This document shows positions 7,801 to 31,535 of a DNA stretch of 59,135 bases, piece by piece. The position numbers were made by a program, and so were the translations under genes. A model generated the notes under the pieces. It was not told where the DNA came from, searched no databases, and worked only from the letters and a program-made list of their open reading frames with translations. How positions within the stretch are numbered: the stretch's first letter is position 1; each line of letters opens with the position of its first letter. Origin of the DNA: a virus; IMG/VR virus record IMGVR_UViG_3300020055_000021, positions 1-59,135 of that record; one strand, written 5' to 3'.

Positions 7801-8655
7801 TATGGTTCATCTAAAACTGATGTCCTGAACAACCTAATCCTAGGACCTGCTGATGAATATATTCCAGTTCCTGATTTCTATGATAGTGATTTCAATAGTG
7901 TCAACTTCCCAATCACTATTGGAACTGATAACAAAATGCCAGTTCTTCAGTATGTACTTTCGGGTGTTAAGTATGACTTCAGAGCAAACAATACTACTAG
8001 AAGAGTAGAGGTGTTCCGTGCATCCCGTGCTCCTGGAACTGGAGAAGAGGTAGTTGATCTATCAGCACCTATTACTAATGGTGGTTTAGATTGGTTCCAA
8101 GTTGTTGATGATGTTCCCGAAGGTCAGCAACCAACTGGTACTCAAGTTGACCCAGCATTGGGACAAACTAAGTTTGCTATTAGTGCTGCTGCATCTAGCA
8201 CACTTAATAATACATACCCAACAAGTTTTGATAACTATAACATTTATAGAGCAGTTGGTATTGATTATGTTAACATTGGCGATGACTTAAATCCTAACTT
8301 AGGCACTGGAACTCTTGATGGTTCTACTTATGTTGTTAATTGTAATGAATTTGCATATAACTCTGTAATTGTTGATTACTATATCAAATTAGTCGCGCAT
8401 AGTTATGCACCAGAACCAGCACCATCTTTTGGTACTAGAATTTGGAGAGTAGTTGGTAAGACAGACCTTGGAGCTGGTAACTATCAACTAAGATTAGAGT
8501 CCTGGGAAGAGAATGGTAGTGGAGATATTAAATCTTCTGTTGAGGCTGGTAGTGCTCTTTCTGGAGTTGGAACAGAACCAACTGCGGGTGGTGGATACTT
8601 CCAAATCAGGAACAAGTTTGTCATTGCTAGAGGCATCCTAACGGTCAGCGCATAA
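4900..8655 (+). CDS. Large tail fibre/tailspike-like protein with beta-helix
   Basis: A 1251-residue protein. The N-terminus (MSLIKVNQLSTLDAAAEREV) and the first 260 residues carry fibre motifs: TSDVEFASITVGNLTVSG, LYYTDARARQAF, and repeats of the 'GxxxYxPxxGxFxYxGP' kind. From about residue 735, IPLQNAINDAKNAG then IPGGTYLVTQLEM is the entry of a right-handed beta-helix of the pectate-lyase/tailspike type, followed by Asn- and Ser-rich rungs. This suggests host-surface recognition, perhaps with polysaccharide binding or cleavage. Expressed late, first of a run of giant virion genes. It could be a virion decoration protein instead. Confidence 0.75.
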   Translation: MSLIKVNQLSTLDAAAEREVSANTGLKIPATEELKVEGPLRDRLGLVGNTGQYLVSYNNGDGVEWKSLPQNINTTSDVEFASITVGNLTVSGDFSFELSNFTTSDLIEGGNLYYTDARARQAFSATISGSGDGSISYNSGTGVFTYSGPNSVDYRAAFSAEKFEDGVETYLGDLSYDIIQGKFNYFGPKVSEIRTEFSAESNDGAPTALGSLGYDPSLGQYSYVGPTIEQIRQLFSTTGDITYEPTTGEFEVNLGAVPASQVFGQINTSSTTDISAYDSSIQNLHVNNAAYQLASVTQIAVASNVATIDASHTFLAGDRIKLSNTGDAHLDGIYVVASSDALGITQTPGTQFTIATANVADQTITPVGCEVRRVSVFTGDLVVDGSINVNGSKIGLSDLFVGTSLIRLNSDLPDDQNPAFDGTDDAIIEVNRGAQPDTALRWNELARRWQFSNDGINYNNILLPSETDFGGAEEFGASGDPNRYDVLSVTDNSVGANTFKVLEVPDITKFKQNHRVKVFGLSKTQFLNSDNPQPVSGDIVVQPPAVETAGFSTADKNFYAYAIAQIDLNTGDISAATVQAASPVLNRNVDDLNEANYNIIQVTRDGGGDKGILIYRGIFADDVTGNIAQNAVDNFAANSTSFKLIAAVGPKYFENDTTYVYNDYGSYDVTVNSDRDGDGSFGPNEIHVPHTAPLLPKQGWITAGIRPNGIDETTSTIEIDVPNLYEDGNLNNIYLYHDDTIPLQNAINDAKNAGRNFLVIPGGTYLVTQLEMPDKFTLRGLADATVLHRQYWSTEYITGNDYLNGNNPVPERNGIRSSMIVSEKYDGTLSSPAGMIDVFLGDIILDGSVKYQILNAASSFNLDANDTVVNGVNSKFFRLSNVKIRKSAGPALFAAGAENLTIDSCTFFDGADVERFQTPVLIADEGDTTIVTGCVFRDFPGALDFTTTNVLAVNACTIRNCGSGLRIYGSSKTDVLNNLILGPADEYIPVPDFYDSDFNSVNFPITIGTDNKMPVLQYVLSGVKYDFRANNTTRRVEVFRASRAPGTGEEVVDLSAPITNGGLDWFQVVDDVPEGQQPTGTQVDPALGQTKFAISAAASSTLNNTYPTSFDNYNIYRAVGIDYVNIGDDLNPNLGTGTLDGSTYVVNCNEFAYNSVIVDYYIKLVAHSYAPEPAPSFGTRIWRVVGKTDLGAGNYQLRLESWEENGSGDIKSSVEAGSALSGVGTEPTAGGGYFQIRNKFVIARGILTVSA

Positions 8656-8701: not shown

Positions 8702-11700
8702 ATGGCTACAGGTGTAAATAATAGTACCGCTGTGGTTGTAGTCGGAAGGACTGCGCCAGTCCCTCCTGGTCAACAGACATCCGCAAATTCTGTACCAGTT
8801 GTTATCGCTTCAGACCAGTCTGCTATCCCTGTTGAAGAACAGAATAAGCAGCAATCTGAGGTCGCCCTTTCACTTCTAGGTATTCCTAGATCTGAAGTTG
8901 CTCTTGGTATCTTTGCTGACGTTAACACATACGATGTTAACCCAACAGAATGGTCTCAGTTTCCTGAGCAGTTTACTACTGCTGACATCTACAATGACAA
9001 TGGAGATCTAACAGAACAATACACCGGACTACTTAACAAACTTGACTGGGGTCTCACTCATATCCCTGAAGAAGCAGGTGCTATGATTGAAGCACCATTC
9101 AATGAAGTATCTATTCTCACCTCTAAGCGTTTCTTCCGTTATCAACCTGGTCGTGTCTCTGCTGCTACTTTTGGTGTCAAATTAAATAGAGCACCTTATA
9201 CAGTTCAAGATAATGCTACAAGTGGTGATTCTGTAAGAAACCCAGCACTTAAGAAGTATGGTATTTTTGATAAGTTTGATGGGTACTACTTCGAATCTAA
9301 GAACGATGGTTATGGTGATAACTTTACCTGCGTAAGAAGAACACAATCTATTATTCGTGATAACCCAATTTACTTTTCTGATCTTCAACCACAAGACTAT
9401 GCTTGGGTTGGTGTTCCTTTAGTTGAATCTAGTCGTCCTCGTTATCTAAATGCTTACGACCTCCTGAAAGCAAACAAGAGATTTCTACAGGAAGTTGCTG
9501 CACAATCACTAGATGATGCTGGTGAAGCAGATAAGTGTCGTAGAGATGCTGGTCTAGTTATTGAGGGTGTCTTGGATGACCTGAGATATGGTGGTAATGC
9601 TTCTACAGTTTACAACACACTAAGATTTTTCAATAAAAACAATCTTCCATCCGGTGTATATCTAGACAATGTTCAGACGGAAATTGCTAGATACGCCGTT
9701 ATTTCTCAAGTATGTCAGAACCTATGTAATGGTCAGGTTCCTAGTGCTAATGGCAGTGGTTCTAATGATTCATATACTTTTGAAGGTAATACATATAACT
9801 ATGTTCCTGCTAGCGCCCTACCATCAGTAACTGTTGAGGGAGGTGCTGCTTCTGCTGTCAATGGTCTCTTTGATATTCTAGAGGTTGCTTTAGGTAGAGA
9901 TACACTTAACGTACCTAATTATAATTCAATTCCTGAACCAGTTGGTGCTGCTGCTGGTGAGATGGCAATCCTTAGAGATGGATTGGTGATGATTCATGCT
10001 GCTGCTAATGACCCATCACTTCTTAAGCGTAGAGTTAACTATTCAATTACAGATTTAATTGCTGACCCAGGTGGTGCAGCATACCAGTGGATTGAGATCA
10101 CTATTCCTGATAGAGAAGCAACACTTCAACTAGGACAAAGTGTTAGCTTCCAGAAGAATGAGGGTACTGGAAGATTTCTTAATGCTGCACAAGAAGAAAT
10201 ACCTGATGGTAAAATTCTATTTGTTGAGGAAGTTCTTGATGTTGTGGAAGATGGTGGGGTTATTAAGCAATATGTAAGACTATGTGCAAACCCATCTAAT
10301 GAGGAAATTTACACGGGTGTTGGTGGAACAAACGCAACCAATCCATTTGGTGCTGATGGCGACCTAGCATATCCAGATAAGCAATCTTTTAATATCATTT
10401 CTTCTAACCAATCTGTATCTGCTGGTGGTGGTACTGTTGCTGCTTCTGCTCAGGGATTCACACTAAGAACACCAACACCATTCCTACTACCAAATGATTC
10501 CAGAGCATACAGAGGCACACAATATACTGATGAGTCTCGCCCCGGTCAAGAGGGTGTTCCTGCTGGTACTGTAGACGGATGCTTCCCATATATCTATCCT
10601 CCTGCTGGTGGCGCTTCTGCCGGAACTCAGGGATATATTGATTCTGTATTTTCAAACACTGGTGACTTAAGAGCACAGATGAATTATGTGAACAAGAGAT
10701 TGTTCAAAAACTGGGTGTGGTTCAATGTGGATCCAAAATACTACAAGGTGTATGAGTATAGAGTTCCTCGTTCCAGAATGAGTGGGGAAAAACTCAATGG
10801 TATTATAACTGATGTTATTTACAGTGATAATGTACTAACAAATAAAGCTGGTGCTCCAGTTATAGAGCCAACCACAGGAGAACAACTTACATTCACCAGT
10901 CTTTGGGACCTTGACCCAACTAAGGTTACCATGTATAAGATTGAGTTCTCATGGTATGGTGCTGTTGGTGCTACCTTCCTTGCTTATGTTCCTATCGAAA
11001 ATAATGAAGCAAGATGGGTGAGAGTACATCACCTCAGAGCATCTAACCAATTGAAGGTTGCTTCTCTTGGTAATGCTACACTACCTATTACTTACCTAAC
11101 ATATGGTGGTGGTAGTGAAAATGCTTACGGATATCTTAATGCTGACAGACCTCTCAACACTGAGTCTGGATATGGTTCATGCTCAGAGCAATTAACTAAG
11201 TATGGTGCTTCATACTACATTGATGGTGGAGACAGAGGAACTGTTAGACTATTCTCCTACGCTTCTGACTCACTTAAAGAGATTGGTGGTTCCAGATATA
11301 CATTTACTGAAGCTGAACATACAGGTTTATATACTAGTTCAGCTATTGCTGAAGAATCAGCTGACAATGCTGGATATGTGAATGCACCTAGATTACAATT
11401 CACGGGTACTGCAAGTTCATTTATATCGCAGGGTGGTGATATACCAGACATTTCTGATTACTATATGAATGCAAAGGTTCAAACATCGAATAGTTCAGAT
11501 CAAGATATAAGAGTGGTATATGTCGATGAGGCAAATCGTTATCTATATCTTTCTAGAGTTCTTTCTGCTACTAGCGGTGACATTAGATTGATTGTTGATA
11601 GACCACAACCTCTAGTAGGTATTAAGTGTAGAACTGAAATCAATGGTGTAAGAAATAGAGTTCAGATTTATCCAACACGTCTTGCGACAGGTGTTACTTC

Positions 11701-12421
11701 TCAGTCTGAATCAATGGTGGTTGAACTTAGAAAGACACCAGTGTTCCAAACATTAACACAAACATCAGGTACACTTTCTGTTAACTTTGGTGGTATTGAT
11801 ATTGGTAGAAGAGGTAAGAGAACTTTACTACCTATTGGTGCTGGTTCTGGAGAAATTTCTGTTTCTGATGTTGGCGGTAATTACATACAACCAGGTGAAG
11901 AAATCTGGGGATACTTTAGATATACTATTAAAGGAGATACCTCAGGACTTGCCTTTACTTCCCTAGGAAAACTCGATAGAGATTTTGATAGCGGTAAGTA
12001 TTACTTCTCTGCTTACGAGGTAACTCTAGAGGATATTCTAATCAGAGGAACATTTAATCCTTGTGGTCAGTGGAGTGGTCCTGGTCCTCTAAACCCAGAC
12101 TTAGACAATCCAACTCCTTTACTTAACCCATATCCAACCTCAACTCTTGCAAGACTATCTGCCGTAGAGACAGATTCAGAGCAACGTTCACCTATACCTG
12201 GAACAGGAACAACTATTACTACACTCTTCTCACCAAACTCTGGTGAAGAATATGAACTATCTCCATACTTTGATTACAACAAGGACTATCTATCCTTCCC
12301 ACTTACAGATATTCAAGAGACACTATACATTTGTGCTTCTTCTAAGTCTGATTATCTTGAGTCTGGAAACTATGTAAATAGAGGTGAGATACTAGCGAGC
12401 ATTACCTGGGAGGAGCAGTGA
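8702..12421 (+). CDS. Virion structural protein, paralog A
   Basis: A 1239-residue protein beginning MATGVNNSTAVVVVGRTAPV, with strong RBS GAGGAG. Recognisable segments are LLGIPRSEVALGIFADV (about residue 58), KRFFRYQPGRVSAATFGV (about 143), MYKIEFSWYGAVGATF and YVPIENNEARWVRVHHL (about 745-780), and YGASYYIDGGDRGTVR (about 833). The same blocks recur in the next gene. Large proteins of this kind are virion components in cyanomyoviruses (known from the family, not seen here). Likely a baseplate-peripheral or fibre protein; no enzyme motif. Confidence 0.75.
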   Translation: MATGVNNSTAVVVVGRTAPVPPGQQTSANSVPVVIASDQSAIPVEEQNKQQSEVALSLLGIPRSEVALGIFADVNTYDVNPTEWSQFPEQFTTADIYNDNGDLTEQYTGLLNKLDWGLTHIPEEAGAMIEAPFNEVSILTSKRFFRYQPGRVSAATFGVKLNRAPYTVQDNATSGDSVRNPALKKYGIFDKFDGYYFESKNDGYGDNFTCVRRTQSIIRDNPIYFSDLQPQDYAWVGVPLVESSRPRYLNAYDLLKANKRFLQEVAAQSLDDAGEADKCRRDAGLVIEGVLDDLRYGGNASTVYNTLRFFNKNNLPSGVYLDNVQTEIARYAVISQVCQNLCNGQVPSANGSGSNDSYTFEGNTYNYVPASALPSVTVEGGAASAVNGLFDILEVALGRDTLNVPNYNSIPEPVGAAAGEMAILRDGLVMIHAAANDPSLLKRRVNYSITDLIADPGGAAYQWIEITIPDREATLQLGQSVSFQKNEGTGRFLNAAQEEIPDGKILFVEEVLDVVEDGGVIKQYVRLCANPSNEEIYTGVGGTNATNPFGADGDLAYPDKQSFNIISSNQSVSAGGGTVAASAQGFTLRTPTPFLLPNDSRAYRGTQYTDESRPGQEGVPAGTVDGCFPYIYPPAGGASAGTQGYIDSVFSNTGDLRAQMNYVNKRLFKNWVWFNVDPKYYKVYEYRVPRSRMSGEKLNGIITDVIYSDNVLTNKAGAPVIEPTTGEQLTFTSLWDLDPTKVTMYKIEFSWYGAVGATFLAYVPIENNEARWVRVHHLRASNQLKVASLGNATLPITYLTYGGGSENAYGYLNADRPLNTESGYGSCSEQLTKYGASYYIDGGDRGTVRLFSYASDSLKEIGGSRYTFTEAEHTGLYTSSAIAEESADNAGYVNAPRLQFTGTASSFISQGGDIPDISDYYMNAKVQTSNSSDQDIRVVYVDEANRYLYLSRVLSATSGDIRLIVDRPQPLVGIKCRTEINGVRNRVQIYPTRLATGVTSQSESMVVELRKTPVFQTLTQTSGTLSVNFGGIDIGRRGKRTLLPIGAGSGEISVSDVGGNYIQPGEEIWGYFRYTIKGDTSGLAFTSLGKLDRDFDSGKYYFSAYEVTLEDILIRGTFNPCGQWSGPGPLNPDLDNPTPLLNPYPTSTLARLSAVETDSEQRSPIPGTGTTITTLFSPNSGEEYELSPYFDYNKDYLSFPLTDIQETLYICASSKSDYLESGNYVNRGEILASITWEEQ

Positions 12422-12424
12422 TAA

Positions 12425-15400
12425 ATGAGTGGACTAGACATACGAATCGGGCATGATAAGCAACCAGCGCCTATCATTCCTACGAACGCACCGCTTTATA
12501 ATTTATTAACTGGTGAAGTATTAACTGACGAAGGAGGTACTCCACTAGTTTCTGAGCAAGACATAGCTTTAACGTCTTTTAATTCCGCATCCAAGTCCAC
12601 TTCTATTTGTTTTACTGAAGAAGGAAAGACTACAGTAAATGAAGATGCTAATATTAGAGGAACTAATTTTGAAGCTAGAAATGATGCTATATTTGAAATT
12701 CAATTATTACTAACGGGTGGCGGATACACTACACCATTAAATTTTTCCGTTGGTAATGCTACTCTTTCATTTACAATTGATGAGGTAACTGGTTCAGTTA
12801 ACTCTATCTCGGTTGTAGACCCCGGAAGTGGATTTGCTGAAGGATTTGAATTTGATATACCTGGTGGAGATACTAGTACACCAAACCTTGCGAGAGCAAG
12901 AATTAGTCGCGTATCTACATTATTAACTGGTGACCAAACTAGATTCAGAGATGATCTTGTCGATGGAGATAGAGTAATTCTACCAACAGGTCGTGATGCA
13001 TTAAATGCTAGAGTTTATGAGGAGAGAAAAGTATTTGAAGTTAGGAATCAATCTCAAGCATGGTTGACACTAGCAGTAACTGACCAGCAACTAAAAGATT
13101 CTAATGGTACTGGATTTGGTACAGTAACAAGAAAGGGATTTATTTTAGTTAATCCTATTCTTCCCATTGCTGAAGAGTTTCCGCTGTTTAGTGAAGTTAG
13201 CTCTACAATTCTTGGTATTCCTAAGGCAGAAACTCAGTTGGGATTGTTCTCTAATGTTTCTAGTTATGGATTAGATGAAGATGCATTCTTATTCTATCAA
13301 AATAATAGTGCCACTAATGACCCAAGTCAATGGGCTCGTAGAAAGAATCCAATTTACGGGAGACATCAAAATAGTACCTCATACATCGAACAAAAAGATG
13401 AGTCTGCTATTGTTCTGAGTGCATTTAGAGTACCTTATGGATATCCATATGGTCCTAACCCAAATGGTACTGCTTATCCTTTTGATTCGCATGTAATCTT
13501 CTGTAACTTCCTGAAGATGGGTTGTTTGTTATATGACTGGTTTAAACCTGGTGGTCCCGGTTTTGATTCAGAAAATGATAACGGAGCATTTGCCTCAAAG
13601 TTTGTTCCATATGTTAGGAACCATGTCACCGCACCTAACTTTGTATTAGATCCTACTGTTGCTGCTACACAACCCGCTCCATACTATGATAATAATGGCG
13701 TTTTGATTACACCATACATTACCGGAGAAGAAATCTATAAACTTACTGACTGGGATATTAATACTAATACTCCACAACCAGGAGCAACTCCTCTGGGAAC
13801 TGTAAGGGCATATCAATTCTTAGCGGGAGTCTTACATTTCAATGAAGAAGTTGGACTACCTTTCAAAGATAATGATAGTCCGGAGAATGGACTTCCAATT
13901 ATTGCCGCCCAGAGTTTAACTACATCTGCAATTACTGGTGACATGACATTCATCACTCCAGAAAATTTCCTCTGGGGTATGCAGAGTCCATTAAATCCTC
14001 AGTATCCCAATCGTCAATCTTTCTATGACCAGTTGGCGGTATGGACAGAGACATGGAGAGATATTAGGGCTGGAACTTTTACATTACCCAATGGAGCTCC
14101 ATATGGAGCACAAGAGGTGGATGGTAACCCATACATTCAGGAGTTTATTGTTGATGCCCTAGCATTAGTAGGTGCTGATAGAAATATCTTCAATCGTTCT
14201 AAACCTGGATACGGTTCAAATAGACCTGTTCGTTCTTATCTAGTGTCGAAAAAAGCATTTAGATATCAACCGGGCAGAATTAGTGGATATACATTTGGTG
14301 TTCGTGCTTCAGGTGACGCTGTAACTAACGAGGTTAATATTGAATGGGGTATTGGTAATGAAACTGACCAGTTGTTATTCAGAAATAGAGGCGGCAATAT
14401 TTCTATCGTAAGAAGAAGTGTTGTTCCTTTACCTGATGAATTACTTGAAAAACAGAGTATTGATCCTAGTGACCAATTTTTAACACAACTGAATTCCAAT
14501 CCTCAGGACACTGAAGCTTTTACTGGTATTCCTAGACGAGATGTTTATGAATTAGAGATTCCTAGAGACTCTTGGAATGGCGATCCTCTAAATGGTAATG
14601 GTCCTTCGGGATGGAACTGGAGAGCAGAAGATGTGACCATGTATAAGATTGAGTTTGGATGGTATGGTGCTATTGGAATTCAGTTTTATGCTTATGTTCC
14701 AATCCTTAATAATGAAGCAAGGTGGGTTAAACTACACAGAATTATTATTGAGAACCAACTTGGGCAACCATGTATGGGAGACCCATACTACAAGTTCCAA
14801 TATACATTAGAAGTAAACGACCATGACCAAGTGAGGTCTCCTCAGTTTATCTATAAGTATGGTACTTCCTGCTACATTGATGGTGGTGACGAAGGAACTA
14901 TTAGAGTTGGTTCTGCTACCAGTGATTTCAAAACTGCACCTGTTGAGTTAGTAGGTGGAGTACCACAATCAACCACTGTTGTTGGGTTGATTCCAAAGAC
15001 TGTCATTTATAATCGTTCTGGTCAGGCAGTTAAAAATAAGCAACAAATTTTCCCAAGAGAATTGTCATTAATAGCTGATGGATTAACTGAAATTTCATTG
15101 GTTAAATGTAAAGCATGTCCTGGATTTGGGCACACATATCAGACAAATGTTAATTCATTTGTAAGTGGAGACCTTAGATATATTATCCATCCTCAGACTG
15201 GTATTGTAAATAATACTCCTGTTTTTGATAGAGGAACACTTGAGCTTCCTCTGTTACTTAGAAGAGGTAATGCTACTACCGGTAGTGACATCATTACACT
15301 TACTGCTGTTGATCCTGCGGACCCATCACAAGAAGCATCTCCATCTATCACGCAGTTCCTTAGGGTGGGTGACATAGTAAATCCACAGGAAGGAAATTCT

Positions 15401-17131
15401 CCTCTATTTGATGGTGGCGATCCTCCATATATTACTGCTATCAATGGTAATGATATTACTGTGAGTAAAGTTTTAGGAACTCAAGGTGGTAATCCAATTG
15501 CTCTTAATGATTTTACTTTTGAAATCCAACCATTATTCATTGGTAGGAAAGATGAGTACGCAAAAATAATTGCTAGTAGAGTTTGGTTGAGATATATTGG
15601 ATCTAGATTACAATTTAGTGGTTCTATCTTCAATACTGTTGTCGATGGATTTAATGTTCAGGGATATACTTCAGCACCCATAGTTGGAATTGATACGGCC
15701 GCTGCGGGAGTGTTCCCACAACAAGCAGAGGCGTTTAGATATTTTGAAGACCAACCATTACAGGCATTCAGGAGAATTAATGCAGGAACCAACGTTGAGC
15801 AAATTATTCCTACTGATACTAGATTCCCAATTAGATTAGCACAATATGATGCTGTTGCTGGGTCTGCTTTACCTGTTGTTGGTAAGAAAAACCAACTTTT
15901 GATGTTATTACCTAACAATGGTAGTCGAGCTGACAACGGAATATATTCAAATGGACAATTCTCTGATTGGAGAGTTGGTATTACTACACTTAGACCAACT
16001 CAACCAGGTGGACCAGGAACAGATTTAGTATGGGAACGACCTAATGGTGCCGGTCCAGTAGCAGAGTTTACTAACAATTATAAATTATTTGCTGAGAGAT
16101 TTAATATTGGTGTCTTTACTGATACAGAAGGATTTGAGTTAAGTGAAACATATAATGGACGTATCCCTCCATTTACTGTGGACTATAGAATTCCTGAACC
16201 ACCAGGAACTAATACTGGTAGATGTGCATACATTGAAATCACTGTAGGTGATCCAATTTTTGCATCATGTTCTCAAGTTGCTGGAAGTGCATTGCCTAAT
16301 CTAACTCAAGCGTTTATAGATGCTGGATATACTTTTGGTAATACATCGAACGATTGGTACTTAAGATTTTCTGGTGCTCCTCCATTTACCTATGACCCAT
16401 CTGGTGCTGAGGTTGGATTTAATCCAGCAGATCCTAATCCAATAGACCCACTAGATGAAGACTCTATTCCCATTAATGGTTCGGGAGTTAGATTTGCTAG
16501 TGGTTTTGTAACCTATGAGGAAAATGATGTTACCTATAATATTGCCCGAATTGACGGCAAACTACTTCAAAGTGCTAGCACAGCACCAGCACAGGTAACT
16601 ATCTATCTGATTCCTGTCAGTCTGGAAACATATAGAAAGTTTTCTACTAAGTCTTTTGATTACAATCCATTCCCACTCTACTTCTTTATTGAGATGAGAG
16701 ATGCTGGAAGAATTAATGGCGCTGTAATCAAAGAAGAGACGGCAGTAACTAATGTATATAATCCAAGGTGGTTGGGTTCATCTTCTATTACTTTATCAAA
16801 TGAAAATAATGAAATTGGTCCTATAGGAGACACAGCATTTACAACTGGAGACCAGGTTAGTTTCCCACCAAACTTTACTTCACCCGATAGACTATCATCA
16901 GCCTTCATCGACACTCAGAGTACATCTCAGTTGAGACCATATGAGGTGATAGATAAAGTATATGTTGGTAATGAAACTAAGACCATAGATTTAAGGGCTG
17001 TATTTGATTTCCAGAAGGAGACGATTACACCAGACCTCCTAAATACTACAGCATACTTCTTTATCGCCACTTCTAAAGAGGCAACGTCTACGGAGATTGC
17101 GGGAACATTAAATTACATCGAGCAGCAGTAA
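12425..17131 (+). CDS. Virion structural protein, paralog B
   Basis: A 1568-residue protein starting MSGLDIRIGHDKQPAPIIPT, three bases after paralog A. Shared blocks with A: TILGIPKAETQLGLFSNVSS (about residue 260), KKAFRYQPGRISGYTFGVR (about 609), MYKIEFGWYGAIGIQF with YVPILNNEARWVKLHRI (about 738-775), and YGTSCYIDGGDEGTIR (about 812). It has extra N- and C-terminal domains. A GxGY-type module (VVDPGSGFAEGFEFDIPGG) lies near residue 135. Probably assembled with A in the same structure. No RNA signal between A and B, so they share the late transcript. Confidence 0.75.
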   Translation: MSGLDIRIGHDKQPAPIIPTNAPLYNLLTGEVLTDEGGTPLVSEQDIALTSFNSASKSTSICFTEEGKTTVNEDANIRGTNFEARNDAIFEIQLLLTGGGYTTPLNFSVGNATLSFTIDEVTGSVNSISVVDPGSGFAEGFEFDIPGGDTSTPNLARARISRVSTLLTGDQTRFRDDLVDGDRVILPTGRDALNARVYEERKVFEVRNQSQAWLTLAVTDQQLKDSNGTGFGTVTRKGFILVNPILPIAEEFPLFSEVSSTILGIPKAETQLGLFSNVSSYGLDEDAFLFYQNNSATNDPSQWARRKNPIYGRHQNSTSYIEQKDESAIVLSAFRVPYGYPYGPNPNGTAYPFDSHVIFCNFLKMGCLLYDWFKPGGPGFDSENDNGAFASKFVPYVRNHVTAPNFVLDPTVAATQPAPYYDNNGVLITPYITGEEIYKLTDWDINTNTPQPGATPLGTVRAYQFLAGVLHFNEEVGLPFKDNDSPENGLPIIAAQSLTTSAITGDMTFITPENFLWGMQSPLNPQYPNRQSFYDQLAVWTETWRDIRAGTFTLPNGAPYGAQEVDGNPYIQEFIVDALALVGADRNIFNRSKPGYGSNRPVRSYLVSKKAFRYQPGRISGYTFGVRASGDAVTNEVNIEWGIGNETDQLLFRNRGGNISIVRRSVVPLPDELLEKQSIDPSDQFLTQLNSNPQDTEAFTGIPRRDVYELEIPRDSWNGDPLNGNGPSGWNWRAEDVTMYKIEFGWYGAIGIQFYAYVPILNNEARWVKLHRIIIENQLGQPCMGDPYYKFQYTLEVNDHDQVRSPQFIYKYGTSCYIDGGDEGTIRVGSATSDFKTAPVELVGGVPQSTTVVGLIPKTVIYNRSGQAVKNKQQIFPRELSLIADGLTEISLVKCKACPGFGHTYQTNVNSFVSGDLRYIIHPQTGIVNNTPVFDRGTLELPLLLRRGNATTGSDIITLTAVDPADPSQEASPSITQFLRVGDIVNPQEGNSPLFDGGDPPYITAINGNDITVSKVLGTQGGNPIALNDFTFEIQPLFIGRKDEYAKIIASRVWLRYIGSRLQFSGSIFNTVVDGFNVQGYTSAPIVGIDTAAAGVFPQQAEAFRYFEDQPLQAFRRINAGTNVEQIIPTDTRFPIRLAQYDAVAGSALPVVGKKNQLLMLLPNNGSRADNGIYSNGQFSDWRVGITTLRPTQPGGPGTDLVWERPNGAGPVAEFTNNYKLFAERFNIGVFTDTEGFELSETYNGRIPPFTVDYRIPEPPGTNTGRCAYIEITVGDPIFASCSQVAGSALPNLTQAFIDAGYTFGNTSNDWYLRFSGAPPFTYDPSGAEVGFNPADPNPIDPLDEDSIPINGSGVRFASGFVTYEENDVTYNIARIDGKLLQSASTAPAQVTIYLIPVSLETYRKFSTKSFDYNPFPLYFFIEMRDAGRINGAVIKEETAVTNVYNPRWLGSSSITLSNENNEIGPIGDTAFTTGDQVSFPPNFTSPDRLSSAFIDTQSTSQLRPYEVIDKVYVGNETKTIDLRAVFDFQKETITPDLLNTTAYFFIATSKEATSTEIAGTLNYIEQQ

Positions 17132-17137
17132 GAGAGA

Positions 17138-20100
17138 ATGGCAATTACAAATCCTAGAATCTTTGGACTAGCAGTTCCAAGAAACCTTACTGATGTAAGG
17201 GATAGGGATGAAACTCTGTTAAATCTGGGTTTAGATATCAGAGACTTAGAAGTTATTCGTGGTATTGCTGCTGCTGGTTTTGATTCTAATAATTTACAAA
17301 CTATATCTGGATTAAATGTTCCAATTTGGAAAACATTTGATAGATATAGAACAGATGTCAGTACATACAATGGTCAGTTGAATGACTCTGCTGGTACTGA
17401 TATTAGAACTAAAGGTAATTTAGAGGTTCATGGACCAGTTTCCTCTAATGCTTTTAGATATACTTTATTTGATAATACAATTGGTACTCCTTCTCTTAGG
17501 TGGGGAGACATCTCTACTTCTCGTGTAAGTTCTTGGAGTTCTTTTACTGCCTCTATTGCTTATGGTTCTGATGTAAAAATTAGTGGGACACTTTTTGCAG
17601 GTTCATTAAAAACACAACAGGTTCCCACAGAAAGAACGTTTGATTCTGAAGTACCAACACACAAAATTAAGTTAAGACTTAATGGTACTGACCAGTACTT
17701 CTATGTAATGAAAGGAATTCCTATTAGATTTAAGGGATTCTTTAGAGATTTTGATTTTACATTAGATTTCCAAACACAAACGGTTAGGAACAGTTGGAGA
17801 GTTTATAGAACTAATGGATTAGAATTACAGGACTTTGAAAACATTGGTTCGTTTTCTTCATCCACATTAAATTATAGATCTCCTTTCTCTGCTGAAAGAT
17901 TTATTGAGGCATACATTAATCCTGAAGTGGTTGATAGAATTGTATTATCTAACTGCAACATTCAAGAACTACCAAAGTCTAGACTTCCCAATTTAGAAAC
18001 GTTAATCTTTGCTAATAATGGACTAACGACATTTCCAAACTTAAATTTCTTTTCTCCAAACTTGGAATCTCTTGTTATAGATAACAACCCGTTTTATAAT
18101 GGACCTACAATAGATGAGCAGAAATTTACTAAGCCAATTATGGCGAGAATACCAACCACATTAACTAACTTAGATGCATCTGGATGTTTTAAGGGAGGAA
18201 TCGAACAAAATATCTTTAATAGATTGCGTTTATTATCTAGGATTGATATTGATAGAGTTGGTGATATATTTTTCTTCCCTGATTCCGTTAATCCTACAGG
18301 TGCGCTCCCTAATTTTTATGGGATTATTGGACAACCACTTACTCATACAATGGGAGGGGTTAGTTTAGTTGACCACGACTTTAGAACTATTGAACCTGGT
18401 GTTCAGGGTGGTGTAGATCAAGTTACTTTATCTGGTTCTGGTTCTGGTGGTAGTGGTTATAATGGTGGCGCTAGTGGCGTATTTAATGATGTACCATTGA
18501 TAAACGGAAATGGTAGTAATGCTACTGCAGATATTACAATAGATAGTGGAATTGTAGTTGGTGTTGTGATTAAAAATGTTGGTTCTGGATACAACGTTGG
18601 TGATTTATTATCCGCTAATAATGCTAATCTAGGTGGTTCCGGATCAGGTCTTGCTATTGAGATAACAAGTCTGATTAATGTCCTTAGTATTAAGCAACTA
18701 GAGAATTTAACCAGCATAAATGTAAATGACAATAACGGATTAAATGATCCAAACTTTTCTTTAAATTGTCCATCAACACTAACTAATTTAAGTATTCAAA
18801 GAACTCAAATTGCACTTCCAAATGTAAGTAACTTTACTGAGCTTACTGATGTCACTATCTATGGTGGTTCTGGTAGGGGTTCATTTCATACCGGGTGGGA
18901 TGGTACATTTGGTGGAGTAGGTTATCCAAGAACAGACCAGGATAATTTTAAGTTCAATAACTGCCCCGTATTAACTGGCATCACAACAAGTTATTCTGAT
19001 ATCAGTGGATACTTACCAAAGTTTTCTCTTTGCCCAGCATTGACATCATATGGATTTTTTAGCACAAATAGTATAATTGCAGGTCGTCCTGGTAAGAGAA
19101 AAGTATTAAAACTATTACAGGGTGGTGGTATCACACAACTAGGTGCTTTCAATGAACCGGCCGGTAGACCTTACACAGGAAATAGTACTACTGAAGTAAC
19201 GGACACATTAGAAAATGCTGGTGCAACAGAAGGTGCGATTGTTAGTATTACAACTGATGCTAATGGTGATGTCACACAAGTCAATATTGTTCAAGCTGGT
19301 TCTGGATACACCACATCAGATTTGATAACTATTCCAGCGGGTGCTTTAGGTTCAAACAAAGGAGGAACCATTGCAATTGCGGCGGTTGCAACTGGAACTA
19401 TTGGTAGTAATGATTATAATGATGGCACATATAATTTTGAGTCAGATGATAGTACTAATACTGCTGTCGGTATCAATGCTGCAGTATCATTTACTATCAG
19501 TGGAGGAGTGGTATCTCAGTATGCTCTAGTTCAACCTGGACAAGACTATCAAACTGGTGAGTCTATTACTATTCCAACCTCTGTTGTTGGTGGAACTCAA
19601 CCATTACAATTTATTATTGAAGAGGCAGAAGCACCTAAGATTTTATACAACGATCAATTTGAATTCAATCCTAATATTACTAATGTTGATATCAGTATTA
19701 ATAATCCATTATTTGCTGGTGAGGTAGAGTCTGGTGCATTTACTCCATTAAGAACTAAGTTACGTTTCTTAAGATTACAAGCTAATGGAAGAATTACTGG
19801 TAACTTCCCCAACCTAGAAGACCAGGCAGCATTAAGAGAAGTAAGATCCCAAAGTCAAGGATGGACAGGTGCTCTTCCATTGTTCTCTTCTGCTCTAGGA
19901 TTAGAAGAACTATATCTTAGTGGTAATAATTTTACAGGAAAATTTGAATACCAAGCAAAAAATAATTTAAGAATTATAAGTTTATCAAATAATAATATTG
20001 ATGAGATTAGTAACCTCAGTCTATTACCAGCTTGTGAATCCTTCCAGTTATCTAATAATAATTTGTCGGGAACTATTCCTGCTTTAGGTGCTATCATGCC

Positions 20101-21385
20101 CAACATTGAAAGTATAGGACTGGCAGACAATGATTACAATGGGTATGTAGATGGTACAGTTAATCAATTACTTTTGTTAAGAACGTTTGATATTTCTAAT
20201 AACAGACTTGGCGTATCTGAAATAGATAATATTCTATTTGATTTTGTTGATAATTATCGAGCAGCAAATAGAGGTAATGTGACAGTTAATCTTACTGGTC
20301 CTAATATGGCACCACCAACACCATATCCTGTGACTGGTGGTATCATTGAGACAATAACTTTTACTGACCAACCAACAATAGGTAATGGTATTTTAACTGA
20401 TATTGGTAGTGCATTAAATGCTCCAGTTGGATCAGTTCCTGTTGCTGGCACCTATGAATCTGCATTGAACTATGATGGAGCAGGTTCTGGTGCTAGAGTA
20501 ACTATTGAAGTTGTTAATGATTTCTTAGAGGATGTTCCCATTGCTATTAATACTACACCTACATTCACAGGAACAGTTGGAGAAATTACGGGTGCGTTAA
20601 CACTAATACCTAATGGTGAAAGTGGTGTTGTAGTGGGTCCTACTGATGTAACTTCTTTCACAGTGACTGATGGTGGAACATCAGCACAGAATAGTGGAGA
20701 CTCAGAATTTACTGCTGCTACTGTACAACTTGATTATGATGGTACTGTAAGTCAAACTTTCCCAGTAAGTGCTACCCTAGTAACTGGTGGTTCTGGATAT
20801 AGTTTACAAGGCACACCAGATAAAATTGTTATACCATCTAGTTCAGTAAATGTTAATCAGTTATTACCTATTGAACTCACCATTAGTAGTGTTCAAGAGT
20901 TTACAAATGGCACTGCAGCATATACAGATACTGGTGCTAACACTGCTGCTGGTAGTGGTGCCGCTGTTAGTGTCACAGTTGCTAGAGGTGGTCTGGATAT
21001 TACATCCGCTTTAGTTGACCCAGATGCCACACCAGGAACCGGATACTTAGATACAGAACAAATTACTATCAACTTACCTGGTAGTATGCCTAATAGTGGT
21101 GAACTAACATATGATATTACCACCGTACAGAATGAATACTATACAGATACAAGCTATAGTGTCCTCCTCCTAAATAGTGGTGGGGAAGAATATTCTGCAC
21201 TTGATGTTTTAAGTACAAATGATGTAATTCCATTCAGGGATCCAGTTACAGACGTGGTACAGAATGGTGGATTAGAATTACAAGTTCAGTCAATTAGATC
21301 GCAGATAAACAAAGCAGTCTTCACTGGATTTGGTGCTGTTGAATTCCTCAGAGGAAAAGGTTGGACCATTAGAGTAGAGAGTTAA
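17138..21385 (+). CDS. Giant virion protein with leucine-rich repeats
   Basis: A 1415-residue protein starting MAITNPRIFGLAVPRNLTDV. Two leucine-rich-repeat areas are visible: residues about 265-330 (IVLSNCNIQELPKSRLPNLE, LIFANNGLTTFPNL, LESLVIDNNPF) and about 870-1030 (LEELYLSGNNFTGKF, LRIISLSNNNIDEI, SFQLSNNNLSGTIPALG, LRTFDISNNRLG). The second follows the plant-type consensus LxxLxLxxNxLxGxIP. Between and after them are several GxGY modules (for example NIVQAGSGYTTSDLITIPAG). LRRs bind proteins or glycans, so a host-receptor or adhesin role is likely. It sits in the fibre block; function is inferred from the domains. Confidence 0.8.
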   Translation: MAITNPRIFGLAVPRNLTDVRDRDETLLNLGLDIRDLEVIRGIAAAGFDSNNLQTISGLNVPIWKTFDRYRTDVSTYNGQLNDSAGTDIRTKGNLEVHGPVSSNAFRYTLFDNTIGTPSLRWGDISTSRVSSWSSFTASIAYGSDVKISGTLFAGSLKTQQVPTERTFDSEVPTHKIKLRLNGTDQYFYVMKGIPIRFKGFFRDFDFTLDFQTQTVRNSWRVYRTNGLELQDFENIGSFSSSTLNYRSPFSAERFIEAYINPEVVDRIVLSNCNIQELPKSRLPNLETLIFANNGLTTFPNLNFFSPNLESLVIDNNPFYNGPTIDEQKFTKPIMARIPTTLTNLDASGCFKGGIEQNIFNRLRLLSRIDIDRVGDIFFFPDSVNPTGALPNFYGIIGQPLTHTMGGVSLVDHDFRTIEPGVQGGVDQVTLSGSGSGGSGYNGGASGVFNDVPLINGNGSNATADITIDSGIVVGVVIKNVGSGYNVGDLLSANNANLGGSGSGLAIEITSLINVLSIKQLENLTSINVNDNNGLNDPNFSLNCPSTLTNLSIQRTQIALPNVSNFTELTDVTIYGGSGRGSFHTGWDGTFGGVGYPRTDQDNFKFNNCPVLTGITTSYSDISGYLPKFSLCPALTSYGFFSTNSIIAGRPGKRKVLKLLQGGGITQLGAFNEPAGRPYTGNSTTEVTDTLENAGATEGAIVSITTDANGDVTQVNIVQAGSGYTTSDLITIPAGALGSNKGGTIAIAAVATGTIGSNDYNDGTYNFESDDSTNTAVGINAAVSFTISGGVVSQYALVQPGQDYQTGESITIPTSVVGGTQPLQFIIEEAEAPKILYNDQFEFNPNITNVDISINNPLFAGEVESGAFTPLRTKLRFLRLQANGRITGNFPNLEDQAALREVRSQSQGWTGALPLFSSALGLEELYLSGNNFTGKFEYQAKNNLRIISLSNNNIDEISNLSLLPACESFQLSNNNLSGTIPALGAIMPNIESIGLADNDYNGYVDGTVNQLLLLRTFDISNNRLGVSEIDNILFDFVDNYRAANRGNVTVNLTGPNMAPPTPYPVTGGIIETITFTDQPTIGNGILTDIGSALNAPVGSVPVAGTYESALNYDGAGSGARVTIEVVNDFLEDVPIAINTTPTFTGTVGEITGALTLIPNGESGVVVGPTDVTSFTVTDGGTSAQNSGDSEFTAATVQLDYDGTVSQTFPVSATLVTGGSGYSLQGTPDKIVIPSSSVNVNQLLPIELTISSVQEFTNGTAAYTDTGANTAAGSGAAVSVTVARGGLDITSALVDPDATPGTGYLDTEQITINLPGSMPNSGELTYDITTVQNEYYTDTSYSVLLLNSGGEEYSALDVLSTNDVIPFRDPVTDVVQNGGLELQVQSIRSQINKAVFTGFGAVEFLRGKGWTIRVES

Positions 21386-22951
21386 ATGGCATTACTTAAT
21401 CAAGGATTTGTAAGATCACTAAACTTAGATGATGTTGAAGATTCCATACTCAGCATCAATAACTTAGCTGGTGGTACTATCACTAACGATCTTATTGTTT
21501 TCGCTAATAATGAAAACAATGTGACCAAACTTTTATTTAAACGACCTGGTATAGACACAAATAATAGTGTTGTAACTGAAGGTGACGGCAGTGTCTTCAG
21601 GCAGGTGGATAAGATTGGAACCTTTGGTAATGGAGACCAAGTTCGTATCAGGTCAATCATTAACATCACCAATATTGAGAGGGATGGACTACCTATTGCG
21701 GCTAATGACCAACTCCGTGTGACTCTAGAGAAACCTTTGCCTGCTGATTTCTTTGACCCTGCAAATGGTGTCATTAAAGTAATATTAAATGAAACTAGAT
21801 TTGAGATTGCTACAGACCAGTTAAATGGTAAGGAATATGTAGCAACTGGTATTTTTGGTAGTCCACAGATTCAATTCTTTTTAAATGATGTTGGATACCC
21901 TGAAGATTTAGATGATGAAGGTGTTGACCAAAATGCTATTGGTGCTTTCGATCCTGATGGTCCCAATAATAATCTGGATAACTATCCATACATCACATCC
22001 TCTTCTTTAGCGGGCCCAGCGGTGGTTTCTGGAGACGCTATTGATTACAATAGAATATACTTTATAGCAAATTCTAATGCTGTTAATCAATTTAGAATTG
22101 GTAGAAACTATAGTAGAAGAGAACTGATTGACCAAATTGATTTTGGAACATCTTTTGCTGGTGATGTACCAGTTGCAGGTTATAATGGTACATCAGGTGC
22201 CAGCGTAATATTTGAAAGGGTAAATAAATGCGTCAAAGAAAACTTAATCAACCTTTCACTCCCTGTTTTTGAAGATAGAAATGACTTTACTTATACTAGT
22301 GACGCTTTGAGTTTTGGAATTAATGGAAACTTTTCTAGACTAGAATCATCTCTAGACTCAGCAACATTCTACACACTTCAAAAGTATTTGTCCAGAGAGT
22401 ATAATTACTATGATGTAGATGAATTAGAATTTGCTGGAAATTTATATAGTTCTGATCCTGATGGATTTAATCAAATACAATCAGACTTAGTAGAAACTGA
22501 TAGAAGTCCTGGTGTTTATATTATTAATAAGGATGCATCCCCAGCGTTTGATAATATTGTTTTAACTAGGGCGTATTCTGATAACACTCAACCATGGGAA
22601 CTCAATGTAAATACGCTAGAGTTCCAAGCACTAAGAGATTTCGATGGTAATTCTACTACATTTAATGATAATAATCAGGAGATGACAATTGGTAATTTAA
22701 TTTTACAAGATAAAACTGATGCTATTGAAATTGGTAGTGCCTCAGAACCATTACAAAATGTTGATGTACTTACACTAGGGGAAGCTAGTGTTATTGATAG
22801 CGGTCAACCAGTGCTTGCCGCTGATCCAAATCAATTTAGATTTACACATAAATTAAACGTACTAATAGATACTACTGGTGAAGGACCAGAGTTCTATAGT
22901 ATTTGTTTATCTACAGTAGCAGATGCAGGAACTGCACCTGGTTCTTCTTAA
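21386..22951 (+). CDS. Virion structural protein, 521 aa
   Basis: Starts MALLNQGFVRSLNLDDVEDS directly after the LRR gene stop, with no gap. Beta-rich composition with many Asn, Asp and Thr. The central motif SRREL-IDQIDFGTSFAGDV and a C-terminus FYSICLSTVADAGTAPGSS are not diagnostic. It is last in the rightward late operon from 8702 and its 3' end overlaps by 4 bases the convergent gene on the other strand. Probably a fibre or baseplate accessory protein translated from the same late transcript. Confidence 0.7.
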   Translation: MALLNQGFVRSLNLDDVEDSILSINNLAGGTITNDLIVFANNENNVTKLLFKRPGIDTNNSVVTEGDGSVFRQVDKIGTFGNGDQVRIRSIINITNIERDGLPIAANDQLRVTLEKPLPADFFDPANGVIKVILNETRFEIATDQLNGKEYVATGIFGSPQIQFFLNDVGYPEDLDDEGVDQNAIGAFDPDGPNNNLDNYPYITSSSLAGPAVVSGDAIDYNRIYFIANSNAVNQFRIGRNYSRRELIDQIDFGTSFAGDVPVAGYNGTSGASVIFERVNKCVKENLINLSLPVFEDRNDFTYTSDALSFGINGNFSRLESSLDSATFYTLQKYLSREYNYYDVDELEFAGNLYSSDPDGFNQIQSDLVETDRSPGVYIINKDASPAFDNIVLTRAYSDNTQPWELNVNTLEFQALRDFDGNSTTFNDNNQEMTIGNLILQDKTDAIEIGSASEPLQNVDVLTLGEASVIDSGQPVLAADPNQFRFTHKLNVLIDTTGEGPEFYSICLSTVADAGTAPGSS

Positions 22952-25900
22952 ACGTTATCTCTCCAGAGTAACAGATAGTAAGTGTCTCCGTTTCCATCTG
23001 TAATGGGAACGTAACCACCCATAATATCATTTGCGTCTGTTGCTACTTCATTAGACCCATCAGTAACCATCTCTAACTTGTCGTAGGAGACTTTACTATT
23101 CGTATTGAATACTCCTGCTCTACCACCACCCGTGCTGGTAAAGTCTAGTACCATTTTCACATCATTGATTGTTGCTAGTCCTCTAGAGGTAGCAGCAAAT
23201 GGTGGTGAAGTATCAGTAGGTCTGAAACATACTTCTTTATTAACTGTATCCCCAACAGGTGTGAATGTAATTCTAGTTACTACACTATCAACAAAACTGA
23301 TTGGATTATTTTGTACTGCTCCAGAACCAACTGTTAGTGTAACTAAAGCTGCTGTATCCTGAGCACCGCCACCAGCATTTGATGCTGATTGTGTGATATC
23401 AGATACGATATTTGAAATTGTAGCAACACCACCTAAGTTATTAACATCTGGTCCTGTGAATTGAAGTGATGGGAATAGGTGTGCTACCATTCCATTAGTT
23501 AAATCTTTAGCATCTGGAACTCTAAATGTTACACTGCTACTAGCAACATCAGGATAGTCTAATCTAAATGTAGCATTAGCACCACCAGTATTGATAGTTA
23601 TTATATTGCCGGGTTCGTATCCTTCACCCGCATTGTCTGGGTCTACCCAAGCATATGTAACGGCACCAGCACCATCAGTTACATAATATACTTGCAGATT
23701 GCTCCCTGTTCCACCAGTGGTGCCTACAGAACTACCAGATGGTAATGCTTCACTTACATATCCACTACCACTACTATCGAGTTCTAGTTTGGGTAGAATT
23801 CTCTTATCAAATACTCCCTGACAATAGGAGGCAAGACCATCGTTGTTAAGTCCAAAGGTTTGATAAACAAACCATCTCTTACCAAATCCAAATATACTTT
23901 GTGATTGATCTGCAAATACAAAAGAGTTTTCTGCTTGATTAAATCCAGATTCAACTCCTGTTTGGAATCTATCAATCAATGCGGTTTCACTACTTTGCTT
24001 TAGCACACCAACTTCTTCTTGTCCGGGTATAGTTTTGTCATTGTAGAAGAATTGACCTGTCCAGTCTTCTTGCTTGAAGATTTGATTCTTTTGGAAAATT
24101 AGTCTAGGTTTTCCTGTTAAAAATGTGTCAGTAAGTGTAGCGCAATCAAATACTAAATTGATACCTGGTTGGTCTAATAAATTACCATCAATTTCAAATA
24201 GTTCAAAGTTAGAATACCCTGTACCTGGTGTCAATGTAGTGATTACGAATGAACCACTGTTATTTCTACTAATGTTAAAGGTAGCTCCAGTTCCATCTGT
24301 ATTAGAAGTAATATTTACTCCTTGTTCGAATGTTCCGTAGTCTTTGTTGGTGAAGTCAAGGTCTACAGTATCTCCGGAAATAATTCTTGAGACATCGAAT
24401 CCTCTTTCTCCTAAAGCAAACCCATTTTCTGATAGTCCTGTTGCCGGTACGATGTCTGTACTGTATTCTCCGTTTGTACCAAAGGCAACTAACCCTTTAT
24501 GATCTATAATTTCTATATCTGATGTGCCGCTTGAAGTACACGTTCTGTCGAGAATAATTGATTGATTATTATTAATACTAGAAATTCTGGAACCAACTGG
24601 AATGCCAGCACCTATTACATAATTTCCTACTTCAACAAATTCAGTTCTATTAGGCAGTCCTACATTTATACCTGTGTCAGGTAGTACAACAATTCTAGAA
24701 TTGTTAGTTGTTGTTGCTTCTCTAGACTGAATTATATCTGTTACTGGACCTAAGTTACCAACGTAATAAGATACAATTGGATTGAAGTTTGATAGTCCAA
24801 CGTAGTTATCACCAGCAGCACCTCCTTCTAGTGGTGTAGTTTGTACACCAACTGGCAATCTGTCATTAATTCTGGTTCCAGCAAAACTAATTGATTCATC
24901 AATAAATTTTTTGAAGTTACCTATCTGATAGAAATCAAAGTAGTCTTCTGGATACAAATATTTGTAGTCAAAGTCATCATCTTGTCCACCAAGAGGTGGA
25001 TTTCTTTCAAAGATAATTCTTCTGTCAAGTGACCCAGTAATTTGCGACTCAGATTTATCTATTGCGTCATCATCATAGAAGAAACTAATTCTAATTTTGT
25101 ATGGATCGTATGCTTTTAACTCACCTAAGTTTACTTGGAAAGTTCTACTGGTTCCTAATGCTATTCCTGTATTACTAGCAGCAAGTTCATCATAGAAGTA
25201 CCATCCTCTTGTGCTATCGATAGTAATTGTGATGTCTGCACCACCAACAGATGCTCCTGGAATAGTAATAGTCTCACTAGAAAGATATCCATCACCAGGA
25301 TTGTTGATAAGAACAATAGGATTACCACCCAAATCTCTACTGACATTAAAAGATGCTCCAACACCAGCACCTGTATATGTAAATGCTGATATAGTACCAT
25401 AGTTTTGATTAAATTCTGCTGGCACAGCAGCTCCAGCAGTACTAATTTCATCAATAATACCAGCAGTAACTAATCTAGTTTGATCTAAAATAGTTTGTAA
25501 ACCACTGCCATTATTAAAATCTAAATCATTTAGTCTAAAAGTTCCTGTGCTTGGGTCGAAGGTAAAATCTTTACTTGGTGCTTCCTTTGTATCAAATTCA
25601 ACTCTTATGAATCCAGTTGTGGTAATTCTGATACTCCATGTCCCATTTTGTGTGGGTTTAAAGAATCCTGTCCACTCAACACCACCATAAAAATTTGCTA
25701 GGTTAGGTGATAGTTTCTGATTGTAAACAAACTCACCTTCCTCCCAAAAATTATTCTTATCGTCAGCTCTTTCTGTACCTTTTGCTGGGTCTATTGTTGC
25801 TCTACCTGTAGGGTCTGTGGGGTCAACATAGTTATCGAACCCTAGGAATGGTGTTGAAGCATCTTCTGGTGTGCTTCTCAAGATGCCATCAGAATTAAAG

Positions 25901-26238
25901 TATCTTGCTGTCAGTCCATCTCCACCAAAGAAGAAGGGTTCTGATGTAGTAAAGTATGCTCTATCAAATCTATTTGATAGTGTAATTAGGGGTTCATAGG
26001 TTATGTTTGTACCAGTTGGTCCAGTAAATTGTACTGTAGTGTTAGCAGCACGAGAAAATACATTAGAATCAACATCACTGGAAAATATTCCTTTGATTAA
26101 TTGTAGGTCTTCACCAGTAAATGATTCTGCACTACCCTTAATCCTATCCAGCAAAGTGTTTAATGCAGTAACTGTGCTAGACAAATCACGAAGATTTTCT
26201 GACCTCTTAGCACCAAATTTCGAAAAAATCTTTGCCAT
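22948..26238 (-). CDS. Giant virion protein with PA14-like domain and GxGY modules
   Basis: A 1096-residue protein starting MAKIFSKFGAKRSENLRDLS. Residues about 105-215 look like a PA14-type carbohydrate-binding domain: GDGLTARYFN, then YGGVEWTGFFKPTQNGTWS followed by IRITTTGFIRVEFD, matching the family's 'v.w.G.l.p...G.y.f....dd.vr..idg'. Four GxGY modules follow (NNPGDGYLSSETITIPG, LTPGTGYSNFELFEIDG, DSSGSGYVSEAL, GEGYEPGNIITINTGG). A glycan-binding fibre or baseplate protein is likely. Encoded opposite to its neighbours and convergent with the gene ending at 22951. Confidence 0.75.
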   Translation of the reverse strand: MAKIFSKFGAKRSENLRDLSSTVTALNTLLDRIKGSAESFTGEDLQLIKGIFSSDVDSNVFSRAANTTVQFTGPTGTNITYEPLITLSNRFDRAYFTTSEPFFFGGDGLTARYFNSDGILRSTPEDASTPFLGFDNYVDPTDPTGRATIDPAKGTERADDKNNFWEEGEFVYNQKLSPNLANFYGGVEWTGFFKPTQNGTWSIRITTTGFIRVEFDTKEAPSKDFTFDPSTGTFRLNDLDFNNGSGLQTILDQTRLVTAGIIDEISTAGAAVPAEFNQNYGTISAFTYTGAGVGASFNVSRDLGGNPIVLINNPGDGYLSSETITIPGASVGGADITITIDSTRGWYFYDELAASNTGIALGTSRTFQVNLGELKAYDPYKIRISFFYDDDAIDKSESQITGSLDRRIIFERNPPLGGQDDDFDYKYLYPEDYFDFYQIGNFKKFIDESISFAGTRINDRLPVGVQTTPLEGGAAGDNYVGLSNFNPIVSYYVGNLGPVTDIIQSREATTTNNSRIVVLPDTGINVGLPNRTEFVEVGNYVIGAGIPVGSRISSINNNQSIILDRTCTSSGTSDIEIIDHKGLVAFGTNGEYSTDIVPATGLSENGFALGERGFDVSRIISGDTVDLDFTNKDYGTFEQGVNITSNTDGTGATFNISRNNSGSFVITTLTPGTGYSNFELFEIDGNLLDQPGINLVFDCATLTDTFLTGKPRLIFQKNQIFKQEDWTGQFFYNDKTIPGQEEVGVLKQSSETALIDRFQTGVESGFNQAENSFVFADQSQSIFGFGKRWFVYQTFGLNNDGLASYCQGVFDKRILPKLELDSSGSGYVSEALPSGSSVGTTGGTGSNLQVYYVTDGAGAVTYAWVDPDNAGEGYEPGNIITINTGGANATFRLDYPDVASSSVTFRVPDAKDLTNGMVAHLFPSLQFTGPDVNNLGGVATISNIVSDITQSASNAGGGAQDTAALVTLTVGSGAVQNNPISFVDSVVTRITFTPVGDTVNKEVCFRPTDTSPPFAATSRGLATINDVKMVLDFTSTGGGRAGVFNTNSKVSYDKLEMVTDGSNEVATDANDIMGGYVPITDGNGDTYYLLLWRDNV

Positions 26239-30194: not shown

Positions 30195-30244
30195 AATAGT
30201 AACTCCACCATGTCCCTGATGGTCTTACTTTTTTGCTTAATAAA

Positions 30245-31397: not shown

Positions 31398-31535
31398 ATG
31401 GATAAAGATACCCCAGATAAATTGAGAGAGATTATCATGGACACATGGCCTCAATTATACTGGTTAAAAAATTCAAAGGATAATAAAAATGGTCGCAAGC
31501 ACACTAACACAAACAAAGACAAGGGGGTGGTTTGA
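31398..31535 (+). CDS. Possible small ORF overlapping the psbD start
   Basis: A 45-codon frame, [20 protein letters not shown] then [12 protein letters not shown], overlapping the first 47 bases of psbD in another frame. The first 25 residues look like an amphipathic helix; the rest is dictated by psbD. No RBS is obvious. It could be a leader peptide affecting psbD translation, or chance. Confidence 0.3.

Follow-up and report, generated by a model that had tools for sequence, protein, structure and literature searches.

The architectures usually described for phage adhesins are the beta-helix, the beta-prism, and C-type-lectin or Ig folds. Leucine-rich repeat (LRR) proteins have been reported from two Vibrio phage systems. 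In Vibrio mediterranei phages an LRR protein of the tail module, with a 10%-probability hhpred match, is highly diverse between genomes (PMC10945359), and the jumbo phage vB_VhaM_pir03 has a single BspA-like LRR ORF (PMC7765460). Both reports concern an LRR motif, as here, but neither describes a family that is conserved and syntenic and whose solenoid is supported. The closest described counterparts of the protein analysed here are gp118 of S-TIM5 (YP_007006107 / H6WFW9; host Synechococcus WH8102) and UYE97282 of S-TIM54, both Aurunvirus. The gp118 record is labelled 'virion structural protein and packaging', a label that may stem in part from category annotation, and makes no mention of LRRs; the structural module of this phage is non-T4, the T4-like structural module being absent from S-TIM5 (PMC4928673). 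In fold, the plant LRR ectodomains (BRL2, BRI1, HSL1 and MIK2) and PGIP are similar, with the same LxxLxLxxNxLxGxIP repeats and superhelical LRR architecture, whereas the phage protein has neither kinase nor transmembrane part and has its own N-terminal domain and caps. This likeness is one of fold, and descent is not demonstrated. Phage receptor-binding proteins as such are already known; none of the open-licence papers searched was seen to describe an LRR protein as a conserved part of the cyanophage virion.

The window, by which we mean the whole 59,135-nucleotide stretch of a viral record (59 kb) analysed here, is from a T4-like cyanophage. It carries psbA, a second D1/D2-type gene, and genes for transaldolase, PhoH, gp2, gp48, tail tube and baseplate, and its gp48 matches 842 phage records, the marine T4-like cyanophages best. 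The two photosystem II reaction-centre genes are adjacent (30233-31324 and 31489-32547) and both match the D1 PHROG; the latter is probably psbD (D2). The LRR gene is the fourth of six large genes in one block, here called the cassette (Table 1), and is encoded inside a tail-fibre gene block. An earlier note on this DNA had placed it among virion genes, and the beta-helix, short-tail-fibre/tail-fibre and 'virion structural' family matches of its neighbours agree with this, as does a relative in which a tail-fibre gene lies upstream of the LRR gene. The phrog_1645-type domain of the 12425-17131 product (aa ~605-906) is also found in the siphovirus S-CBS4 and in the T4-like S-RIM2 and S-CAM9, and therefore crosses tail types.

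Table 1. Features of the six-gene cassette and of the LRR protein; the parts of the protein are listed below its gene.
Feature	Coordinates	Strand	Residues	Description	Evidence
Cassette gene 1	4900..8655	+	1251 aa	Fibre-like, with right-handed beta-helix; matches S-TIM5 gp121 by position	Pfam Beta_helix 33.1 bits (above 25.9)
Cassette gene 2	8702..12421	+	1239 aa		phrog_1645 and short tail fibre/tail fibre family matches; synteny
Cassette gene 3	12425..17131	+	1568 aa	S-TIM5 gp119 homologue; anchor gene	phrog_1645 'virion structural protein'
Putative LRR virion protein gene	17138..21385	+	1415 aa	S-TIM5 gp118 homologue; ATG start	Pfam, PDB, homology, synteny
N-terminal domain	17138..17647	+	aa 1-170	DISTSR motif; well conserved in family; presumed attachment part	Alignment
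N-cap	17648..17923	+	aa ~171-262	Beta-strand cap ahead of solenoid, 'MKGIP..F.GFFR' motif; limits approximate	L034 AF2 residues ~191-280, alignment
LRR solenoid part 1	17924..18397	+	aa ~263-420		Pfam LRR_4 at 284-318; AF2
GSGY module block 1	18398..18730	+	aa ~421-531	Insert, missing in compact members	HMM, alignments
LRR solenoid part 2	18731..19123	+	aa ~532-662	Overlooked by the earlier note	AF2; weak LRR_4 match
GSGY module block 2	19124..19627	+	aa ~663-830	Insert, two modules	HMM; AF2 low confidence
LRR solenoid part 3	19628..20332	+	aa ~831-1065	LxxLxLxxNxLxGxIP repeats; ends where C-cap begins	LRR_4, LRR_1, PDB
GSGY module block 3	20333..21289	+	aa ~1066-1384	Insert dividing the C-terminal cap	Intact cap in compact relatives; HMM
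C-terminal end of LRR cap	21290..21382	+	aa ~1385-1415	AVEFLRGKGWTIRVES; helix and strand	AF2
Cassette gene 5	21386..22951	+	521 aa	No family match; positional match of S-TIM5 gp117	Synteny
Cassette gene 6	22948..26238	-	1096 aa	GSGY modules; matches S-TIM5 gp116 by position	HMM, synteny

The ORF is present where the earlier note had it, with the length claimed. The entire protein matches Pfam LRR_4 at 33.9 bits (cut-off 27, E 3.4e-8), so that the profile check which that note had proposed came out in its favour, and the C-terminal fragment (solenoid part 3) alone reaches 41.0 bits for LRR_4 and 30.7 bits for LRR_1 (cut-off 20.6), both above cut-off. This is well beyond chance. The label 'plant-type' for the repeat pattern is right, because ectodomains of plant LRR receptors give the best PDB sequence matches (BRI1-like 2, E 9e-19, residues 851-1024). 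With a profile score above the curated cut-off and a predicted solenoid fold, the product belongs to the plant-type LRR superfamily.

Structure prediction, also proposed there as a check, returned an LRR solenoid. The AlphaFold2 (AF2) model of the window protein covers residues 216-1415 and has an LRR fold in three stretches mostly at pLDDT 90-97, with lower-confidence inserts between them; its structural PDB matches are the BRI1, MIK2 and BRL2 ectodomains. In part 2 the blocks near model residues 301-430 are mostly at pLDDT 88-96, and the cap end consists of a helix (1397-1406) and a strand (1410-1413), the last blocks having pLDDT 79-93. The model of a compact relative of 810 aa (L034), folded with 48 sequences, has a single LRR solenoid at residues ~280-810 (pLDDT ~96), with a beta-strand N-cap ahead of it and, behind it, a helix-helix-strand C-cap that ends in GWSI; its PDB matches are again plant LRR receptors. 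The first ~190 residues of this monomer model, which include the N-terminal domain, are mostly below pLDDT 70. The three LRR pieces of the window protein align to one uninterrupted ~20-rung solenoid in insert-free relatives. Together these results indicate that the three pieces are one solenoid of ~20 rungs cut by glycine-rich inserts. The two LRR areas of the earlier note are both real, but a third stretch exists at about residues 515-645 and all three are parts of the same solenoid.

The inserts are glycine-rich modules that share a GSGY signature, here called GSGY modules. A GSGY profile (HMM) matches the window protein at aa ~421-531, ~663-853 and ~1157-1377, a phrog_6005 match spans residues 436-821, and alignment demonstrates that the modules are inserted in solenoid loops and in the C-cap. 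In compact relatives the cap is unbroken ('..NLRGN..PSG...ILRSKGW[ST]I'), whereas ~320 residues of modules interrupt it in the window lineage, where its final piece, AVEFLRGKGWTI, stands at the very C-terminus. One relative (L002) carries one further module, and in another (L008) the LRR C-cap holds five or more copies nearly in tandem. GSGY modules matching phrog_6005 also occur in 12425-17131 (aa 79-169) and, as three modules, in 22948-26238; a short match is found in the P-HM1 gp7 baseplate protein. Recurring in several virion genes of the window phage, they look like mobile structural modules. The BRI1 ectodomain contains an inserted island domain, and the inserts of the phage protein can be likened to this domain.

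Six large genes of S-TIM5 agree with those of the window in order and strand (gp121, gp120, gp119, gp118, gp117 and, on the opposite strand, gp116), homology being tested for gp119 and gp118 and the other four being matched by position only. S-TIM54 has a similar cassette with one additional small gene. The window LRR protein is homologous to S-TIM5 gp118 in sequence as well as in position, N-terminal domain included: blastp between the two gives E 5e-6, a profile of 48 relatives matches gp118 at 99.3% in hhalign (E 1e-20, 764 columns) and at 1.9e-35 in hmmsearch, and when the predicted fold of the family is compared with viral proteins (BFVD), gp118 comes out first. LRR_1 also matches S-TIM5 gp118 above cut-off, which makes gp118 an LRR protein in its own right. 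It and UYE97282 share cassette place, strand, N-terminal domain and LRR matches with the window protein, but overall identity in the alignment is 19-20% and neither has detected GSGY inserts or the GW[ST]I end of the C-cap. Neither the window gp48 nor phrog_230 found a match when searched in S-TIM5 and S-TIM54. The fibre cassette appears to be common to two otherwise different lineages, because the window is T4-like while S-TIM5 is without the T4-like structural module; this reading is drawn from gene content.

The entire window protein gave no match at 1e-5 in a tblastn search of 50,697 phage records, nor did a first scan of viral contigs, and the family was recovered only with the C-terminal LRR fragment as query and the upstream gene (12425..17131) as anchor. 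Fetching by this anchor yielded 80 IMG/VR loci, of which 69 had the at least 3 kb downstream needed to be usable. An LRR gene is present in all 69, in most cases no more than 35 bases from the anchor, and the window LRR gene likewise lies after a gp119-like gene and before a gene pair whose second member is on the opposite strand. LRR_4 and LRR_8 each match 47 of 48 family members. An LRR profile matches the contigs of 22/22 relatives tested, and phrog_230 was found in 15 of these 22. Seven cyanophage isolates not belonging to the S-TIM5 group (S-RIM2, S-RSM4, ACG-2014e, S-H9-2, P-HM1, Sf-FR1 and the siphovirus S-CBS4) gave no LRR_4 match in the search that matched S-TIM5. Recent gain from a cyanobacterial host was considered and rejected: a genome scan gave 11 generic LRR proteins at 26-38% identity, from Bacteroidota, Bacillales and others, none of them cyanobacterial. 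Two Listeria phage matches, which cover only LRR residues 600-786, were also treated as generic LRR. On five contigs of 54-152 kb (L058, L060, L064, L032 and L051) neither phrog_230 nor psbA was found, and the concave face of the LRR is conserved; these contigs may represent another phage lineage or another host group.

The earlier note had suggested that both repeat number and residues could vary between phages. The repeat number is nearly constant: of the 20 reference rungs, 18-20 are aligned in almost all relatives and 16-17 in the lowest, in a count by alignment to the 20-rung reference in which extra rungs would go uncounted. It is the inserted modules and the concave residues that vary instead. 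The solenoid overall diverges like the neighbouring genes and no faster, and this, with the near-constant rung count, led us to reject a hypervariable repeat array. Within the family alignment, column entropy is ~2.1 at concave positions, 1.6 at convex and other positions and 0.7-1.4 at scaffold L/N positions, and concave positions are more variable than others in three overlapping sets (p 0.0016, 4e-5 and 3e-4). In seven close pairs 26.1% of concave residues differ, compared with 15.1% of other LRR residues, 7.7% of the scaffold and 8.4% of the N-terminal domain; the excess has a Fisher p of 2.5e-9, in a test that pools sites not fully independent and with a pair grouping chosen after the per-pair rates were known, so that the p-value should be read accordingly. 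Three pairs of the L051/L058 type are reversed (concave 5.0% vs 16.8%, p 4e-7). The suggestion of variable residues is supported between lineages but not by the conserved concave face of this group. Three further pairs (L034-L028, L034-L044 and L028-L044) were left out of the pool as sharing members with a pooled pair; L034-L028, one of two unpooled pairs computed, has low concave change. Because dN/dS at concave sites of the seven pairs is below 1 (0.16-0.82), relaxed or diversifying change is suggested there, short of proof of positive selection.

In a sister clade that includes L034 (12930-15362), Tyr or Trp occupies concave position x2 on about nine consecutive rungs, suggesting an aromatic ladder. 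Tyr makes up 33% of this position in the clade, compared with 5% overall and with 16% in a bacterial control that is biased to Tyr by its search pattern. The ladder is absent at x2 from the window protein, and we dropped it as a general binding principle for the window, regarding it as a feature of the sister clade.

We propose, with a probability of about 0.6, that the product is borne on the virion in association with the tail fibres and serves as an adhesin or receptor-binding protein, the concave face of its LRR solenoid binding a host-surface ligand. Its location in the virion of the window phage is inferred. The conserved N-terminal domain would dock the protein to adjoining cassette proteins and so hold it on the fibres; the N-cap, ~20-rung solenoid and C-terminal cap are predicted to form a rigid arc; and the concave beta-sheet may bind a ligand on the cyanobacterial surface at adsorption, because the concave residues are the ones that diverge. 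In the window lineage, glycine-rich GSGY beta-modules are carried in the solenoid loops and C-cap. The fold is one with which plants and animals recognise molecules, and a relative stands at the same place in every comparable environmental virus that we checked; the protein is therefore probably part of host recognition. A cassette common to a T4-like phage and S-TIM5 is also as expected of an exchangeable adsorption module. Of the host-recognition or self-defence surface put forward in the earlier note, the first half is supported indirectly, by comparison of sequences and annotations (the 69/69 cassette, the virion annotation of gp118 and the concave divergence), and for the second we found no evidence. 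A role in self-defence or against the host, such as blocking host surface defences or superinfection, is very improbable: LRRs in general do occur in defence receptors, but nothing from this analysis favours such a role, and the gene sits inside a conserved structural cassette, its product has a conserved N-terminal domain and no defence-type domains are among the matches obtained.

The main rival to the adhesin reading makes the protein a structural connector in the baseplate or fibre. Its concave face would then hold a second phage protein, such as the product of 21386-22951 or that of 22948-26238 on the reverse strand, and host specificity would reside in other fibre proteins. We consider this unlikely, though it is well served by the strict co-occurrence in the cassette, the constant rung number and an overall divergence equal to that of the neighbours, the last of which also counts against an adhesin. 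The conserved concave face of the L051/L058 group fits a conserved partner as well, but in the seven other pairs, pooled, change on the concave face outpaces that in both the remaining solenoid and the N-terminal domain, which would be odd for a connector unless its partner changes too; the concave divergence could indeed be co-evolution with another virion protein. Considerably less probable is a virion-surface decoration that attaches to some generic target (extracellular polysaccharide or particles) and retains the virion near cells, specificity being set elsewhere. The concave Tyr enrichment of the sister clade is compatible with glycan stacking, but the window protein is without the ladder, and Tyr at x2 is present in the Tyr-biased control too.

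More tentatively, and at somewhat less than even odds, the adhesin reading may extend to a widespread and unrecognised LRR-solenoid class of phage receptor-binding protein, in which the rungs are fixed, the concave face sets host-strain specificity, the cassette is exchanged between T4-like and S-TIM5-type phages, and GSGY modules have remodelled the protein in one lineage. If true, phage adhesins would gain, in a conserved LRR solenoid, a scaffold known elsewhere from immune receptors and from adhesins of bacteria. The protein is a candidate for host recognition in a widespread group of marine cyanophages, with about 80 concave positions open to testing, and the S-TIM5 lineage, isolated until now, appears linked through its structural block to the T4-like cyanophages.
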